NCBI GenBank assembly: GCA_029251505.1
Contig: JAQXDG010000164.1
Span: 1 to 36,479, forward strand
DNA: 36,479 bases
Direction of reading: 5' to 3'
Origin: Glaciecola sp.
GTDB lineage: Bacteria > Pseudomonadota > Gammaproteobacteria > Enterobacterales > Alteromonadaceae
The notes under the pieces: generated by a model
Database searches by the model: none
Told to the model about the DNA's origin: nothing
Seen by the model: the letters and a program-made list of their open reading frames with translations, nothing else
Part shown: one piece after another, positions 4,204 through 12,595 of the stretch
How the letters are laid out: every line of letters begins with the position of its first letter
Position numbering within the stretch: the stretch's first letter is position 1
Translations under genes and position numbers: made by a program

Positions 4204-5176
4204 ATGAATAACCTAATGGACACACTGCTTATGATTATGCCGTTATTAATAACGTTGAGCACTGTCGTGATAGCATTGATTTTGGCGCACAAAATCTTAC
4301 TGAATGAACACACCTTAACAAAAGATAATCAATTATCGCGAAAACTCATTTTGTTATTGTTATATGTGCTGAGTTTTTTAGCCGTGAGCTTAGCCCTGCC
4401 TGTTGCAGATAGTACTCGCAATCAAGTCATTGGATTGTTTGGTATTGTGCTATCTGGTGTCATTGCATTTTCATCCACATCTATCGTGGGTAATATCATG
4501 GCTGGCATTGTGCTGCGCTTTACTAAGCCATTTAAAACGGGGGATTTTATTCGTGTTGACCAATATTTTGGACGAGTAACCGAAAAAGGCTTATTTGATA
4601 CGGAGATCCAAACTGAGCAGCGCGAATTTATCTATTGGGTATGACCATCATCATGACAAAATCACACAGTTATTAATTACCGCAGCGAATAATTGTCAAT
4701 TAGAAGAGCCTTTTGTGCAAATCATCGAGCTAGGTAATTATAGTATTTCTTATCGAGTATCCGGTTTATTGACCGAAGTGAAAAGTATGATTTCATCCCG
4801 TTCGCGTTTATACGCGAACATTTTAGATACGCTGCACCAAGCCCAAGTAGAGATAATGTCACCCAACTTTATGAATACGCGCAATATCGCTGACGCGCCA
4901 CCGGCCATTCCTAAGGCCACAGAAACACCTTCGGAACGCATGCCCAAACATGCCGCCTCAAATTCAGAATCGACGCCTGAAGATATGATTTTTGATAAAG
5001 CAGAAGAAGCCGAGCAAAAAGAACGCTCGAGTATGGAACTCAGTGAGGATATTAAGGCGTTGAATGAGCAGTTAAAAGACGCCAAGGATGAACAAAAAGA
5101 TCGGCTTGAATTACAAATAGCCCGTAAAAAAGAACAATTAAGGGCTATAAAAGAAAAGCCCGTAAAAGAGGATTAA
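4204..5176 (+). pseudogene. mscS-family mechanosensitive channel gene, disrupted by an internal frameshifting deletion
   Basis: The first frame (4204-4644) encodes the N-terminal half of an MscS-type channel: three hydrophobic segments, the pore-lining stretch ending in IVGNIMAGIVLRF, and the beta-domain start GDFIRVDQYFGRVTEKGLFDT, then stops four residues after EQREFI. The continuation is in the +2 frame, from about SANLSIGYD through the family's VQIIELGNYSISYRVSG to a charged coiled-coil tail ending at 5176. Family members carry roughly 25-30 residues between these two points (the end of the beta domain, normally including a conserved LPN), and here they are missing. Both sides of the junction near 4620-4634 read well as homologues, so a deletion between short repeats is likely. 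The second half has no other stop codon, so the damage looks recent. A good Shine-Dalgarno sequence (AGGA, 8 bases before ATG) remains. An assembly error is the main alternative. Confidence 0.8.
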
Positions 5177-5253
<77 letters not shown>

Positions 5254-7537: not shown

Positions 7538-8212
7538 ATGATTACACTCCAAAATATAATCAAACAATTTCAAAATGGTGATGAAATCGTCACCGCGATT
7601 AATGATGTCTCATTGCACATTAAACAAAACGAATTTGTCGCTATTATGGGTACATCCGGTTCAGGAAAATCTACCTTAATGAACGTGTTAGGATGTTTGG
7701 ATACTCCGACTTCAGGCCAATACCACTTGGATAACAATAACGTCGCGCAATTAAATGATGACCAGTTATCTCAGATCCGAAACAAATATATTGGCTTTAT
7801 CTTTCAAACCTTTCATTTGCTCCCTAAATTGGATGTCATTGGCAATATTAAATTACCTCTGCGTTACAGTGATGTATCTGAAGATGAAGCTCAGGCTCGC
7901 ACTCTGGCATTAATTGAACGTGTTGGTTTATCTCATCGCAAGCACCATCGACCTTATGAAATGTCCGGAGGACAACGTCAACGGGTCGCCATTGCTCGTG
8001 CCTTAGTCAATCAGCCCAGTGTCATTTTAGCGGATGAACCTACCGGTAACTTAGACTCAAAAACCTCCGAAGAAATCATGGCCCTGTTAACAGAACTTCA
8101 TCAACAAGGACAAACTATCGTGATGGTAACCCATGAACAAGACATCGCTAATTTTGCACAACGCGTAATCCGTATGAAAGACGGTAAAATCATCGAGGAT
8201 AGTGGGATATGA
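7538..8212 (+). CDS. ABC transporter ATP-binding protein, MacB/LolD type
   Basis: A 224-residue cytoplasmic ATPase of the group that pairs with MacB/LolCE-type permeases. Walker A is GTSGSGKST (38-46), the Q-loop lies in FIFQTFHLL, the signature is MSGGQRQRVAIARAL, Walker B is VILADEPTGNLD, and the switch histidine is in VTHEQD. All catalytic residues are intact. In E. coli MacB the ATPase and permease are one chain; here they are separate genes at opposite ends of a four-gene operon. The stop overlaps the next start by four bases (ATGA), so translation is coupled. The start ATG has only a short GAG upstream. The 215 bases before it contain two TACAAT repeats 11 bases apart (about 7450-7465), but I cannot fix a promoter there. 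Confidence 0.93.
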   Translation: MITLQNIIKQFQNGDEIVTAINDVSLHIKQNEFVAIMGTSGSGKSTLMNVLGCLDTPTSGQYHLDNNNVAQLNDDQLSQIRNKYIGFIFQTFHLLPKLDVIGNIKLPLRYSDVSEDEAQARTLALIERVGLSHRKHHRPYEMSGGQRQRVAIARALVNQPSVILADEPTGNLDSKTSEEIMALLTELHQQGQTIVMVTHEQDIANFAQRVIRMKDGKIIEDSGI

Positions 8213-10125
8213 AATCGATATTAATGATCAGTTCAGTCATTTGTTTATTCTTGATGAGCGCGTTAAGTCATGCGGATCCATTAATATTGTCCGGTAAAGT
8301 CTCATCATCCGCTAAACAAACGGTTGTTGCTCCGCGAGGTTCATCGTGGAATATTCAATTACAATGGATGGAAGAAGAAGGCAAAGTGGTGCAACAAGGT
8401 GATTTGGTTGTTGTCTTTGACGGTGCGACAGAACAAAGTCGCTTAGAACAAAGCAAAGAAACACTAGAGCGCTTATTGCTTGAATATAAGCAATTAGATA
8501 TGCGACTCCAACAAGAACTCATCGAAGCTCAAGGTCGATTTAGTGTAGCCAAAATGCAAGTCGCAAAAGCACAAATAGAAGTGTCAGTGAACAGCGATAC
8601 GCTGAGTGACTATCAAAAAGGGCAAAACCAAATGGTATTAGAACGCGCCCTGCTCGAACAAATTAAAGCCGAAGAAGCACTGAAAAAATCTGAAAAACAG
8701 CGCGCTTCAGGTTTGGAAAAGAAAAATATCGATATTTTAAAAGAACAAGATGATATTCAGTACTATGAAAATTTACTGACCAAACTTAATGTTATCGCCA
8801 GACATACCGGTCCCGTCACTTATGCCGACCATCCTTGGTACGGAACCAAAATGGCTTCAGGGATGAATGTGCAACCGAGCTGGACGATTTTAGATGTACA
8901 AGCAACCAGTGATTATCAAGTTGAGAGTTTTGTCCATGAAATTGACGCATTGCGTTTAGCACAAGGTAATCAAGTCACATTGCACTTTGATGCATTTCCT
9001 GAACAGAGCTTTTCAGGTACGGTGTCCTCAATTGGCACTCAAGCCGAGAATAAACCACAAATGAGTAATGCCACCTATTTCCCAGTCATTATTAAGTTTG
9101 ACACGTCACCCAAACGCACCTTATTTCCTGGTATGAGTGTGCGTATCGCCCAAAATGAACAACACGAACAACAAACACTGATTCTCCCCCCCAAGAAAAA
9201 GCAACATATGACGACACAAAACAATGCCTTATCGGTACCAGCTGAGCTCATGTCATTGCAAACCGTGACGATTGGACCACCCAGTATTCGACGTATGTGG
9301 CAATACAAAATTCAACGTTTAGTCGCCGAAAATAAAATCGTTAAAACCGGCGATATGCTCGTCAAATTTGATGGACAAGAATTACGTACTAGCATGTTAA
9401 CCCGTCAATCAGAACTCGACGCGGCAAGTAAACAGCTCGAAAAACTCATTTTAGAAGACACAGTAACACAAGAAAATCTGGAATTAGACCTAGCAGAAGC
9501 GTCAATGAATGAAGATAAAGCGCGGCGTAAAGTTGAAATTACCGTCTCATCACGCTCTGAAGTAGAGCGGCGTAAACAAGAAGCCGATTTTGTCATCATG
9601 CAAGCGCTTAAAGCACAAGCACAACAACGGTTTTATGAACATAAAACACGCCGCATTGTTAACCAACAAGTACAAGAAGCACGGATCATGAATTTACAAA
9701 CGCGTGTGGATGAGATCAAAGACAGTATTAACAAATTAACTATTACGAGCCCCAGTGACGGTATTGTTGTTTTTCGTGACAATGGCGATGGCGATAGATC
9801 CGCCGTAGGTGATACCGTTTTTATGGGTAATTCATTAATGGACGTCCTTTCATTAGACAATCTGGCAATAAAAATAGAAGTTGACGAATCAGATACTAAT
9901 AAAGTGAGAATTGGACAGGCTGTTGATGTTGTACTCAACGCGTATCCTGAACGTATATTTACCGGTAAAATCACCAGTAAAGGACAAGCATATCGCAATA
10001 AATCACAACGTAATCAAAAAGTCGTGTTCGATGCATGGGTGACACTGGATGATCTCGATCTGTCGATCATGCGCCCTGGGATGCAAGCCAACGTCAATTT
10101 ATCCGCATTATCAGGAGCGCTTTAA
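8209..10125 (+). CDS. Double-module periplasmic adaptor (two fused HlyD/MacA-like adaptor units)
   Basis: This 638-residue protein has a cleavable-type signal peptide (about 1-22, ending LSHA) and then two homologous adaptor units, roughly residues 26-330 and 340-638. Normal MacA-type adaptors have one unit of about 370 residues. Each unit shows a first lipoyl half (VVQQGDLVVVFDG in unit 1, IVKTGDMLVKFDG in unit 2), a long charged coiled-coil hairpin, a second lipoyl half, and a beta-barrel strand pair (HFDAFPEQSFSG and VLNAYPERIFTG). Such adaptors bridge an inner-membrane transporter to an outer-membrane TolC-like channel. The linker near residues 326-333 is Pro/Lys-rich and is encoded across a seven-C run. 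It overlaps the ATPase gene by four bases and the next gene by one (TAATG). The internal duplication is visible by eye; the function as an exporter adaptor is inferred from family and operon. Confidence 0.85.
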   Translation: MKSILMISSVICLFLMSALSHADPLILSGKVSSSAKQTVVAPRGSSWNIQLQWMEEEGKVVQQGDLVVVFDGATEQSRLEQSKETLERLLLEYKQLDMRLQQELIEAQGRFSVAKMQVAKAQIEVSVNSDTLSDYQKGQNQMVLERALLEQIKAEEALKKSEKQRASGLEKKNIDILKEQDDIQYYENLLTKLNVIARHTGPVTYADHPWYGTKMASGMNVQPSWTILDVQATSDYQVESFVHEIDALRLAQGNQVTLHFDAFPEQSFSGTVSSIGTQAENKPQMSNATYFPVIIKFDTSPKRTLFPGMSVRIAQNEQHEQQTLILPPKKKQHMTTQNNALSVPAELMSLQTVTIGPPSIRRMWQYKIQRLVAENKIVKTGDMLVKFDGQELRTSMLTRQSELDAASKQLEKLILEDTVTQENLELDLAEASMNEDKARRKVEITVSSRSEVERRKQEADFVIMQALKAQAQQRFYEHKTRRIVNQQVQEARIMNLQTRVDEIKDSINKLTITSPSDGIVVFRDNGDGDRSAVGDTVFMGNSLMDVLSLDNLAIKIEVDESDTNKVRIGQAVDVVLNAYPERIFTGKITSKGQAYRNKSQRNQKVVFDAWVTLDDLDLSIMRPGMQANVNLSALSGAL

Positions 10126-11339
10126 TGATTAATTTAAGACCACGTTCCGCCAAGTTACTTAGTGTTAGTGTATTCGTCTTGTTATTAATGGGTTGTGGAG
10201 ATGACAATCCAAGTACTGTTCCAACCTATGAAGTCAACACTCAACGTTTTTCTATTGAAATCAATGCGAATGGCGAAATTGAAGCTGCCGAATCGCAGAA
10301 GATTATCGCTCCAGGAAGACGTCCTATGATGCTAGCTTGGTTGGCAGAAGAAAACACTCACGTCAACGAAGGTGATGTCATCGCTAGGTTTGATGCGGAG
10401 CGAATCACTCGTGACAAAAATGAAGAAGAATTTGCGGTACGTAAGCTGCAACAAGACATCATTAATTCTCAGGCGTCACAAACTCAAGAAAAACAAGATA
10501 TCAAATCTGAACAAAACTTTATTGAAGAAGAGTTTGCATTTGTGGATCGGTTTGCAATTGACGATTTACGGATTTATAGCCAATTAGATATTATCGACAC
10601 CTTACAAAATCGTGATTTTTTAGAAGCCAAAGATTCATTTTTAGCTTGGAAAGAAACCAGTGTGTTAGAACAACATGATTCGGCTATGTCGGTGTTAGAT
10701 ATTAAAAAACAAGGACACCAAAGTAAGTTACAACAATACCTCAGTGCGTTAAAACAATTAGAAGTCACGGCACCCTACTCTGGATTACTGGTGTACGTCA
10801 AAGACCGCAGAGGCGAAAAACCATCCGTCGGTAATACCGTCTTTCCTGGTAGTCCGATTGCGGAAATTCCCAACTTAGAAAATTTGCAAGCGCGTTTATA
10901 TGTTTTAGCCGATGATGCGATTGATTTAGCCAACGGACAAGGTGTCGATATTCAACTAGATGCGTTTCCCAACAAAACCTTTTCGGGTGAATTATCCTCA
11001 GTCGCGGCCTTCCCTAGAGAAATTAAACGCGGTAACCCCATTAAATATTATGAGCTCACTGCCTCCATAAATGATCAAGACACGACCATTTTAAAACCCG
11101 GTAGAAAGCTATCCGCCACTATTCGTGTTACACAGCCAATGGATACGATTGCAGTGCCCTTACAGAGCATTATTTATGAACAAGAACAGAGCTTTGTATA
11201 TTTACAAACCGGTAACGAGTTTAGAAAACAGCCTGTGACAACCGGCCGAAAAAACTTATATTTTATCGAGATCACCTCTGGATTAACGGTAAATGATGCC
11301 ATTGCTCTGAGTGCTGTGACAATCGGAGCCATACAATGA
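10125..11339 (+). CDS. Lipoprotein periplasmic adaptor subunit (HlyD/MacA-like)
   Basis: A 404-residue adaptor with a lipoprotein signal: the lipobox ends LLLMGC, predicting acylation of Cys24, followed by Gly-Asp-Asp. Asp at +3 rather than +2 leaves inner- or outer-membrane sorting uncertain. The mature part shows the lipoyl half HVNEGDVIARFDAE, a helical region, the second lipoyl half TAPYSGLLVYV, the beta-barrel pair QLDAFPNKTFSGELSS, and a C-terminal membrane-proximal domain. The DAFP-x4-FSG motif is shared with both units of the preceding protein, so the operon holds three related adaptor modules. The start has an excellent AGGAG seven bases upstream and overlaps the previous stop by one base; its own stop overlaps the permease start by four bases. 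Confidence 0.88.
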   Translation: MINLRPRSAKLLSVSVFVLLLMGCGDDNPSTVPTYEVNTQRFSIEINANGEIEAAESQKIIAPGRRPMMLAWLAEENTHVNEGDVIARFDAERITRDKNEEEFAVRKLQQDIINSQASQTQEKQDIKSEQNFIEEEFAFVDRFAIDDLRIYSQLDIIDTLQNRDFLEAKDSFLAWKETSVLEQHDSAMSVLDIKKQGHQSKLQQYLSALKQLEVTAPYSGLLVYVKDRRGEKPSVGNTVFPGSPIAEIPNLENLQARLYVLADDAIDLANGQGVDIQLDAFPNKTFSGELSSVAAFPREIKRGNPIKYYELTASINDQDTTILKPGRKLSATIRVTQPMDTIAVPLQSIIYEQEQSFVYLQTGNEFRKQPVTTGRKNLYFIEITSGLTVNDAIALSAVTIGAIQ

Positions 11340-12595
11340 AAACGACCTTACCTAGACAACAATTCTCCGTATTAATTAACGATGCACTGTATGAGTTGTC
11401 AGCACAAAAATTACGGACATTTTTAACCTTATTAGGCATGATATTTGGTGTCGGTGCGGTCATAGCGATGCTTAATATTGGTGAAGGTGCGGAGCGTGAA
11501 GCCCTCAAACTCATCGATTCTATGGGCGTCAATAATATCATTATTAATCAACGTGACTATAATGATGGTGAATTAAGTGAGATCCGAGAAGACTCTCTCG
11601 GTCTGACCATGGGAGATGTCGCGGCAGCAACGAATACGCTGCCATTTGTTGACGATTACAGTGCAACCAAAATCGTCAAAACCTTCGATATCTATTCTGA
11701 TTTAGCTAAGTCTGATGCACAGGTATTAGGGGTGTCACAACGCTATTTCACCCATTCTAACTTGACCTTGTCACAAGGGCGTTTTTTAGTTCCTGAAGAT
11801 GATGGTGCGTTAGCACAAGTCGCTGTGCTTGGCGCTGATACGGCGAGAGAATTATTTCCTGATAAAACTGATATCGTTGGTCAATTGGTTAAGGTCAATC
11901 ACGTTTGGTTAAGCGTCGTTGGTGTACTAACCGCTCCGGCGGGCAATAAAGATGAATTTCAAGGCGTAAAGATTGGCGGGGACAGGTATCGTATTTTTGT
12001 CCCATTATCCACATCATTGAAGAAGTTTTCGCACAACGTATTGGCGAGCGAACTCGATAGTATTAAATTAAAAATATCGGAATCGCAAAATCCGGTTGTA
12101 GCAGCCAAAGCTGTTACGCATTTAATGCAAATGCGCCATAATAATATTCAAGACTATGACATTGTCATCCCTGCTGAATTACTAGCCCAACAAAAGCAAA
12201 CACAACAAATATTTAATATTGTCATGGCTTGTGTCGCCGGTATTTCACTCTTAGTTGGGGGGATAGGGATCATGAATATCATGTTGGCGAATGTCATGGA
12301 ACGTACCACTGAAATTGGACTCCTTCGCGCTGTAGGCGCAACGCAACAAGATATTCGCTTACAGTTTTTGGCTGAGAGTTTTACAATATCCGTGCTAGGG
12401 GGGTTACTGGGTGTTGTGTTTGGTTTGGTGTTATCTGAAATTATCGGTTTTTACAGCGGCTGGGCAGTCAGTTGGTCATTATTGGCAATTGTGTTATCAC
12501 TCGGAATTTGTCTAGTGGTTGGGGTAGGTTTTGGGGTATTTCCCGCTATTAAAGCCTCCAAACTGAATCCTATTGAGGCGTTACATAGCGATTAA
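11336..12595 (+). CDS. MacB-type ABC transporter permease
   Basis: A 419-residue permease with the MacB architecture minus the ATPase domain. One transmembrane helix lies near the N terminus (about 28-50, LGMIFGVGAVIAML), then a large periplasmic domain, then three helices in the C-terminal FtsX-type domain (about 280-410) with the conserved GGIGIMNIMLANVMERTTEIGLLRAVGA block. MacB-like transporters do not move substrate across the inner membrane; they use ATP to push periplasmic substrates through the adaptor and TolC. GGAG seven bases before the ATG supports the start. It ends the operon 34 bases from the convergent mscS gene. No TolC-like gene and no obvious cargo peptide gene lies in the operon, so the substrate (macrolide, peptide, lipid or other) is unknown. 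Confidence 0.92.
   Translation: MKTTLPRQQFSVLINDALYELSAQKLRTFLTLLGMIFGVGAVIAMLNIGEGAEREALKLIDSMGVNNIIINQRDYNDGELSEIREDSLGLTMGDVAAATNTLPFVDDYSATKIVKTFDIYSDLAKSDAQVLGVSQRYFTHSNLTLSQGRFLVPEDDGALAQVAVLGADTARELFPDKTDIVGQLVKVNHVWLSVVGVLTAPAGNKDEFQGVKIGGDRYRIFVPLSTSLKKFSHNVLASELDSIKLKISESQNPVVAAKAVTHLMQMRHNNIQDYDIVIPAELLAQQKQTQQIFNIVMACVAGISLLVGGIGIMNIMLANVMERTTEIGLLRAVGATQQDIRLQFLAESFTISVLGGLLGVVFGLVLSEIIGFYSGWAVSWSLLAIVLSLGICLVVGVGFGVFPAIKASKLNPIEALHSD

Follow-up and report, generated by a model that had tools for sequence, protein, structure and literature searches.

A MacB-type ABC exporter operon of Glaciecola and its relatives with three homologous adaptor units, two of them recurrently fused

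How many kinds of adaptor can a single ATP-binding cassette (ABC) exporter use, and why would two of them share one polypeptide chain? The question is raised by a locus of Glaciecola sp. (GenBank assembly GCA_029251505.1, contig JAQXDG010000164.1), where genes for an ATPase, a 638-residue long adaptor, a lipoprotein adaptor and a permease follow one another within a stretch of 36,479 nucleotides; "the window" below means that whole stretch. A sequence-only reading of the window had suggested that the long protein holds two adaptor units in tandem and that the lipoprotein is a third unit of the same ancestry. We call these units A1, A2 and A3. Our analysis supports the core of that proposal: the three adaptors are homologous, two of them lie in one polypeptide, and they are encoded together with a MacB-type permease and an ATPase that has its own gene.

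Three homologous adaptors in a conserved operon

Four open reading frames (ORFs) on the + strand were found at the coordinates first reported (Table 1), and the overlaps between neighbours (4, 1 and 4 bases) follow the pattern of a coupled operon. The two halves of the long protein align with 25% identity over 274 columns (E 2e-22), which bears out the tandem arrangement and answers the objection, set beforehand, that the halves might fail to align. The second half also aligns with the lipoprotein adaptor (E 8e-23). Profiles built from 28 (A1), 28 (A2) and 29 (A3) relatives gave E values of 6e-47 for A1 against A2, 2e-59 for A2 against A3 and 9e-33 for A1 against A3, and Pfam HlyD_3 and HlyD_D23 each match two stretches of the long protein, with each half alone passing both cut-offs. 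From the profile and half-against-half alignments we conclude that A1, A2 and A3 are paralogues, and the proposed homology of all three adaptors is upheld.

The permease passes the Pfam cut-offs for MacB_PCD and FtsX, its closest solved relatives by sequence are MacB chains (Table 1), and it matches MacB far better than LolC/LolE. It has both the FtsX core and the MacB periplasmic domain of a MacAB-TolC-like permease, and the ATPase domain that a MacAB-like exporter requires is supplied by a separate gene. This permease is of the ABC type, not the resistance-nodulation-division (RND) transporter of a TriABC-type pump. None of the NCBIfam equivalog cut-offs shown was reached, those for MacA and MacB included (A3 26 bits against 342, permease 225 against 966); because the NCBIfam MacB model covers both proteins as a single chain, its cut-off is all but out of reach for a permease on its own. 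A3 does pass the NCBIfam subfamily RND_mfp, and for the ATPase MacB came first, under its cut-off, in a comparison covering the best 25 of 213 NCBIfam families. No second permease of this kind was found at E 1e-20 in the window's genome, which comprises 2.60 Mb in 213 contigs and is near Glaciecola sp. UBA983 (94% identity in the long adaptor).

Starting from a search of 147 related genomes, in which strong matches outside the window's genus occupied two adjacent frames, we mapped operons using ORFs and the adaptor profiles. The 103 operons examined are the fetched loci, a subset of the matches with near-copies included. All five units stand on one strand in the order ATPase-A1-A2-A3-permease in 100 of them; the remaining three (L003, L058 and L183) are cut by contig ends, and the genomes of L003 and L058 (G005 and G009) show a partial A3. 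In 74 operons A1 and A2 have a gene each; in 29 they share a single ORF. By gene content, every one of the 100 uncut operons has three adaptor units, unlike MacAB-TolC with its single kind of adaptor and like TriABC-type systems, in which at least two adaptor paralogues belong to one pump operon. What calls for explanation, in a change from the sequence-only reading, is a conserved operon with three adaptors; the double adaptor is one of the forms it takes.

With the window's genome included, the A1 profile matched all 10 genomes in the genus, 34 of 394 in the order and 15 of 398 in the phylum (E 1e-20), as well as 1 of 369 in the class (E 1e-25). Around three distant matches it was found in 10 of 101, 36 of 100 and 32 of 99 genomes (the last two sets overlap), and the mapped operons represent 17 family codes of the class. 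This distribution is patchy but widespread. Some weak matches do not belong to this system: the A1-A2-A3 order is absent from all three weak-match loci fetched (L190, L191 and L192). L191 and L192 each have a single adaptor of about 480-500 residues, with an A3-like match in two pieces, beside an ATPase gene (L191 also has a permease); these adaptors perhaps carry an extended hairpin, judging from the split match.

As a control for adaptor number, we searched 114 genomes, an even sample of the class, for the permease and fetched 71 stretches, which cover the listed matches other than the window's own; such a search favours relatives of the window's permease. In these 71 other MacB-type loci, the same-strand run with the permease contained one adaptor gene in 61, none in 10 and two or more in none. 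Among the adaptor-less loci, at least L254 and L259 stop just upstream at a contig end, and an extra adaptor-like gene in L200 and L245 lies on the opposite strand, outside the count. L201 was examined as a possible double-adaptor locus and discarded: each of the two profiles, A1 and A2, has a single match in its 448-residue ORF, and both matches cover the same stretch, which makes one unit. The 61 single-adaptor loci have one permease in 39 cases and two in 22. In those 22 of the 71 control loci (L208, L222, L226 and 19 more), it is the permease, not the adaptor, that comes in two kinds.

Recurrent fusion of A1 and A2

A long frame that is split in most relatives might be two genes joined by an error of sequencing or assembly, and both a run of seven C in the linker (9186-9192) and the split state of 74 of the 103 operons would fit this explanation. 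Against it, differing linkers stay open in seven of the ten genomes of the window's genus (the window, L003, L004, L005, L053, L056 and L058; three are split), with the fused frame of G003 lying on a single 2.53-Mb contig, and in 22 further loci from four other family groups of the class (f206, f213, f308 and f316). Moreover, the A2 signal region is absent from the fused form, not merely frame-shifted; in its place a variable linker, 29 residues long in the window, runs from the A1 motif GMSVRI to the start of A2. We therefore regard an error as refuted by independent genomes and virtually excluded. Judged from these comparisons, the long adaptor is a recurrent gene fusion and not a misjoin. 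The objection that homologues might reveal a misjoined pair was right in that most operons do have two genes and wrong about the joined form, which is genuine and recurs in other families.

The fused ORFs are always A1-A2, and A2 and A3 share an ORF in none of the 103 operons. Open frames of 931 and 650 residues, candidates for an A1-A2-A3 triple or an A2-A3 fusion, were dismissed as long high-GC open frames; once start codons and profiles are applied, A1 and A2 are the only units that share an ORF. The fused rows need two changes in an Alteromonadaceae tree (26 operons, 1673 columns), where a single fused clade is rejected (p-AU 7e-5) and the placement of Opacimonas is weakly supported (69/45). 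This could mean two fusions, or a single fusion together with one re-splitting, for which a stop and a lipoprotein signal would have to arise anew. A second tree of 95 operons, made from the ATPase, A3 and permease only and leaving out seven near-copies and the cut L183, has six changes between fused and split, at least five of them forced by starred branches. That the same pair was fused repeatedly suggests that A1 and A2 act side by side. Duplication within one gene was ruled out as the origin of the double adaptor, since relatives show two genes fused; A1 and A2 are better explained as an old paralogous gene pair that was fused later. One genome (G1367) holds two copies of the fused operon, L159 and L160, the latter on a long branch of the tree.

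Modules and membrane anchors of the adaptors

The A3 profile matches a MacA chain (E 6e-19). The predicted structure of A3 (predicted local distance difference test, pLDDT, 83; predicted template modelling score, pTM, 0.51) has hairpin helices at residues 92-147 and 153-211, a barrel and strands in 339-394; the long hairpin, the barrel and a membrane-proximal domain are all present in it, and its best matches in a fold search are MacA of MacAB-TolC. By profile, model and fold search, A3 has the hairpin, lipoyl, barrel and membrane-proximal domains of a MacA-type adaptor. Neither A1 nor A2 of the window has a membrane-proximal domain, as seen from where the profile matches end. In the double adaptor model (pLDDT 56, pTM 0.27, eight alignment rows), only the two hairpins are confident, their helices spanning 73-122 and 134-192 in A1 and 390-445 and 451-510 in A2.

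We compared C-terminal tails as the residues past the end points of the profile match. They number 1-33 in all 74 split A1, 2-26 in all 29 fused A2, and in split A2 either 1-14 (42 of 74) or 37-60 (32 of 74), a pattern that is confounded by kinship. These lengths leave room for a membrane-proximal domain never in A1 and only in some split A2 lineages, all fused A2 being short. The A2 profile aligns with A3 as far as the C-terminus.

A3 carries the motif LMGC, which we take to be lipobox-like, ending at Cys24, a residue shared by all 29 A3 rows of the alignment. The third adaptor is thus a lipoprotein, as the sequence-only reading had it, but not the only one of the system. In split operons near the window, A1 has by eye an ordinary signal peptide while A2 and A3 both have lipoprotein signals, and the lipobox Cys of A2 is invariant in 28 of 28 split-A2 rows in the alignment of order-level relatives; L061, which lies outside these rows, has an A2 without a lipobox. 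A by-eye count over 22 more distant split loci gave a lipobox in 22 of 22 A3 but a fitting one in only 10 A2; of the 12 A2 with none, 3 hold a non-fitting Cys in the stretch. The A2 of L116, L173, L174, L179-L182, L184-L187, L189 and L061 apparently has an ordinary signal peptide and not a lipobox (also by eye). From these signal sequences, A2 anchoring seems to vary between a lipid, no anchor and fusion to A1.

A proposed heteromeric ring and its alternatives

MacAB-TolC consists of a MacB dimer, a MacA hexamer and a TolC trimer, with a proposed bellows action (PMC5985334; here and below, papers are cited for the passages drawn upon). An engineered disulfide with MacB was formed by only two of the six MacA protomers (PMC10094684), which means that the six ring positions on a two-fold pump are not equivalent. 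By analogy with TriABC, the best explanation, which we think somewhat more probable than not, is that the operon encodes a MacAB-like exporter with a heteromeric adaptor ring, in its simplest form 2:2:2 on a two-fold permease. The permease would present three unlike positions beneath a six-membered ring, and A1, A2 and A3 would co-assemble so that each position is filled twice. A3, with its lipid and membrane-proximal domain, would dock on the permease, and A1 and A2, with hairpin, lipoyl and barrel, would take those places in the ring that have less contact with the two-fold permease. The single A1-A2 chain of the window would fix both units as neighbours and retain A2 without a lipid of its own. 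The 2:2:2:2 complex that the sequence-only reading thought conceivable has indirect support in the three units of all 100 uncut operons, in fusions that always join A1 to A2, and in the lack of any locus with two or more adaptors among the 71 controls. The closeness of the permease to MacB and of A3, by sequence and fold, to MacA also fits the proposed ring, as do the two TolC-type genes elsewhere in the genome. Homology, gene order, the retention of all three adaptors, the repeated A1-A2 fusion and, by profile or model, the module content are shown; co-assembly, this count and ring order, like the channel partner, the direction of export and the substrate, are what we infer from the arrangement.

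Several observations weigh against this proposal. Three double adaptors alone would also give six units, and the double adaptor model, at its pLDDT and pTM, offers no usable A1-A2 packing geometry. A2 anchoring differs among lineages, which makes a fixed ring plan uncertain. No channel gene turned up next to the operon, and when the flanking ORFs were clustered, over the few kb fetched, no cargo or accessory gene cluster among those listed was conserved across families; the clusters that did recur across families appear, by eye, to be antisense or other-frame shadows of the operon. The tree of 95 operons comes from a quick search, contains 44 rows of odd amino-acid make-up and six long branches, and is unable to separate gain from loss of the fusion.

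The main alternative, which we consider unlikely, is that the double adaptor alone builds the ring from three A1-A2 chains, with A3 as a separate, lipid-anchored coupler between ring and permease. Three doubles would fit the three-fold TolC channel, and the membrane-proximal domain is present in A3 and absent from the window's A1 and A2, with all 29 fused A2 units being short (at most 26 residues past the match). However, A3 is a complete adaptor with a long hairpin of its own and a fold close to MacA, and the 37-60 extra residues in 32 of 74 split A2, along with the reach of the A2 profile to the C-terminus of A3, indicate that such a division of labour is not fixed. It is improbable that the adaptors are alternatives, each making its own ring with the permease according to condition or outer-membrane channel. 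The window's genome does have two TolC-type (OEP) genes, both on contigs other than the operon's, and MacA is described as a homomeric ring (PMC5985334); yet 29 of 103 operons encode A1 and A2 as one chain, the 100 uncut ones all retain the three adaptors together, and A1 lacks a membrane-proximal domain (at most 33 residues past the match in 74 of 74 split A1).

It is quite improbable, too, that the operon is a type VII ABC system which, instead of pumping drugs, acts on envelope lipid or lipoprotein, with the adaptors as a lipid conduit. In favour of this reading, the ATPase is close in score to both LolD and MacB, the genes surrounding the operon in the window appear by eye to be housekeeping genes, no conserved cargo gene turned up in the few kb fetched, and an MlaD hexamer sits on an ABC dimer (PMC10094684). 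The MacB periplasmic core of the permease and its far better score against MacB than against LolC/LolE speak against it.

The operon resembles MacAB-TolC in its MacB-type permease with a periplasmic core, MacA-type adaptor modules and ABC ATPase; it differs in that the ATPase is a separate gene, three paralogous adaptors replace one MacA, no adjacent channel gene is seen, and the transmembrane helix of MacA (PMC5985334) has its counterpart in the lipoprotein signal of A3. TriABC-OpmH likewise has more than one adaptor paralogue per pump, but its pump is a three-fold RND transporter and its adaptors are two, TriA and TriB, whereas here a presumably two-fold ABC pump has three. Both TriABC adaptors are required, and the need for such asymmetry has been called unclear (PMC4338810); distinct roles on the RND pump and a 3:(3+3):3 scheme are described (PMC13328181), and triABC is cited as an operon with more than one adaptor (PMC8277102). 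Two adaptors joined in one chain, as in the window, occur in PDB 6vej, whose chain P is a 695-residue adaptor chain named as two joined proteins, which from molecule name and length we read as a TriA-TriB fusion. DSY0927 of Desulfitobacterium hafniense, likened here by description only, is a natural two-unit adaptor in one chain, and this fused dimeric adaptor is named in PMC4446572 together with TriABC and functional engineered AcrA dimers. YknXYZ and S. pneumoniae Spr0693-0695 share the separate ATPase, MacB-type permease and adaptor but are Gram-positive and described, in the part of PMC5985334 used here, with one adaptor. We found no three-adaptor ABC pump among the matches listed from the open-licence literature on multi-adaptor pumps; the "three membrane fusion proteins" of PMC8963506 are, in the text consulted, upregulated RND adaptors in Geobacter and not one pump. 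The sequence-only reading knew of no exporter with this layout, and this stands with the caveat that DSY0927 and the two-adaptor TriABC are in print. The parts are ordinary; what is unusual is their conserved arrangement with a recurrent fusion, fused and paired adaptors having been published already. Mycobacterial Mce1 offers a further comparison as a hetero-hexamer of unlike subunits on an ABC dimer; its MCE fold is unrelated to these adaptors.

A broader rule is possible, and we offer it tentatively: a six-membered ring on a pump of order n would have 6/n unlike positions, filled by unlike genes, and A1-A2 fusions would mark ring neighbours. Its instances might be TriABC, with two adaptors on a three-fold RND pump, and this operon, with three on a two-fold pump of the MacB type. 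If the rule were true, this operon family could map how a two-fold pump grips a six-fold ring. Tripartite pumps join parts of unlike symmetry: the pump is two- or three-fold, the adaptor six-fold and the channel three-fold. Why they do so, and what each adaptor position does, is hard to study with six identical adaptors; in the proposed ring, three positions would be separately encoded and mutable, and natural fusions would report neighbours. The operon also suggests that one of the adaptors can do without its lipid anchor or be held by a covalent link instead, a point relevant to adaptor tethering.

Table 1. Features of the exporter operon in the window
Feature	Coordinates	Strand	Remarks
ABC ATPase (nucleotide-binding domain, NBD)	7538..8212	+	224 aa; MacB/LolD/DarD-like; Pfam ABC_tran 6e-35; NCBIfam best = MacB 5e-81, under cut-off
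Double adaptor A1-A2	8209..10125	+	638 aa, one ORF; 2 HlyD_3 and 2 HlyD_D23 stretches; halves align, E 2e-22
A1 signal peptide, residues 1-22	8209..8274	+	By-eye reading; hydrophobic peak at residue 4, Kyte-Doolittle (KD) 2.06
Adaptor unit A1, residues 23-313	8275..9147	+	A1 profile at residues 7-319, 428 bits; lipoyl, helical hairpin, barrel
Linker, residues 314-342	9148..9234	+	29 aa; differs among genomes; occupies the place of the A2 lipoprotein signal of split relatives
Adaptor unit A2, residues 343-638	9235..10122	+	A2 profile at residues 330-633, 423 bits; 5 residues after match
Adaptor A3, lipoprotein, with membrane-proximal domain	10125..11339	+	404 aa; Cys24 invariant in 29/29 rows; fold match MacA
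MacB-type permease without ATPase domain	11336..12595	+	419 aa; MacB_PCD 8.5e-32, FtsX 9.8e-21; MacB 5nik E 1.8e-53

Elsewhere in the window, the overlapping ORFs 4204-4644 and 4595-5176 (together 4204-5176) resemble one gene broken by a frame change; by eye, they may be read as an MscS-type channel gene. The pair directly adjoins a tRNA-Pro (5177-5253, - strand).

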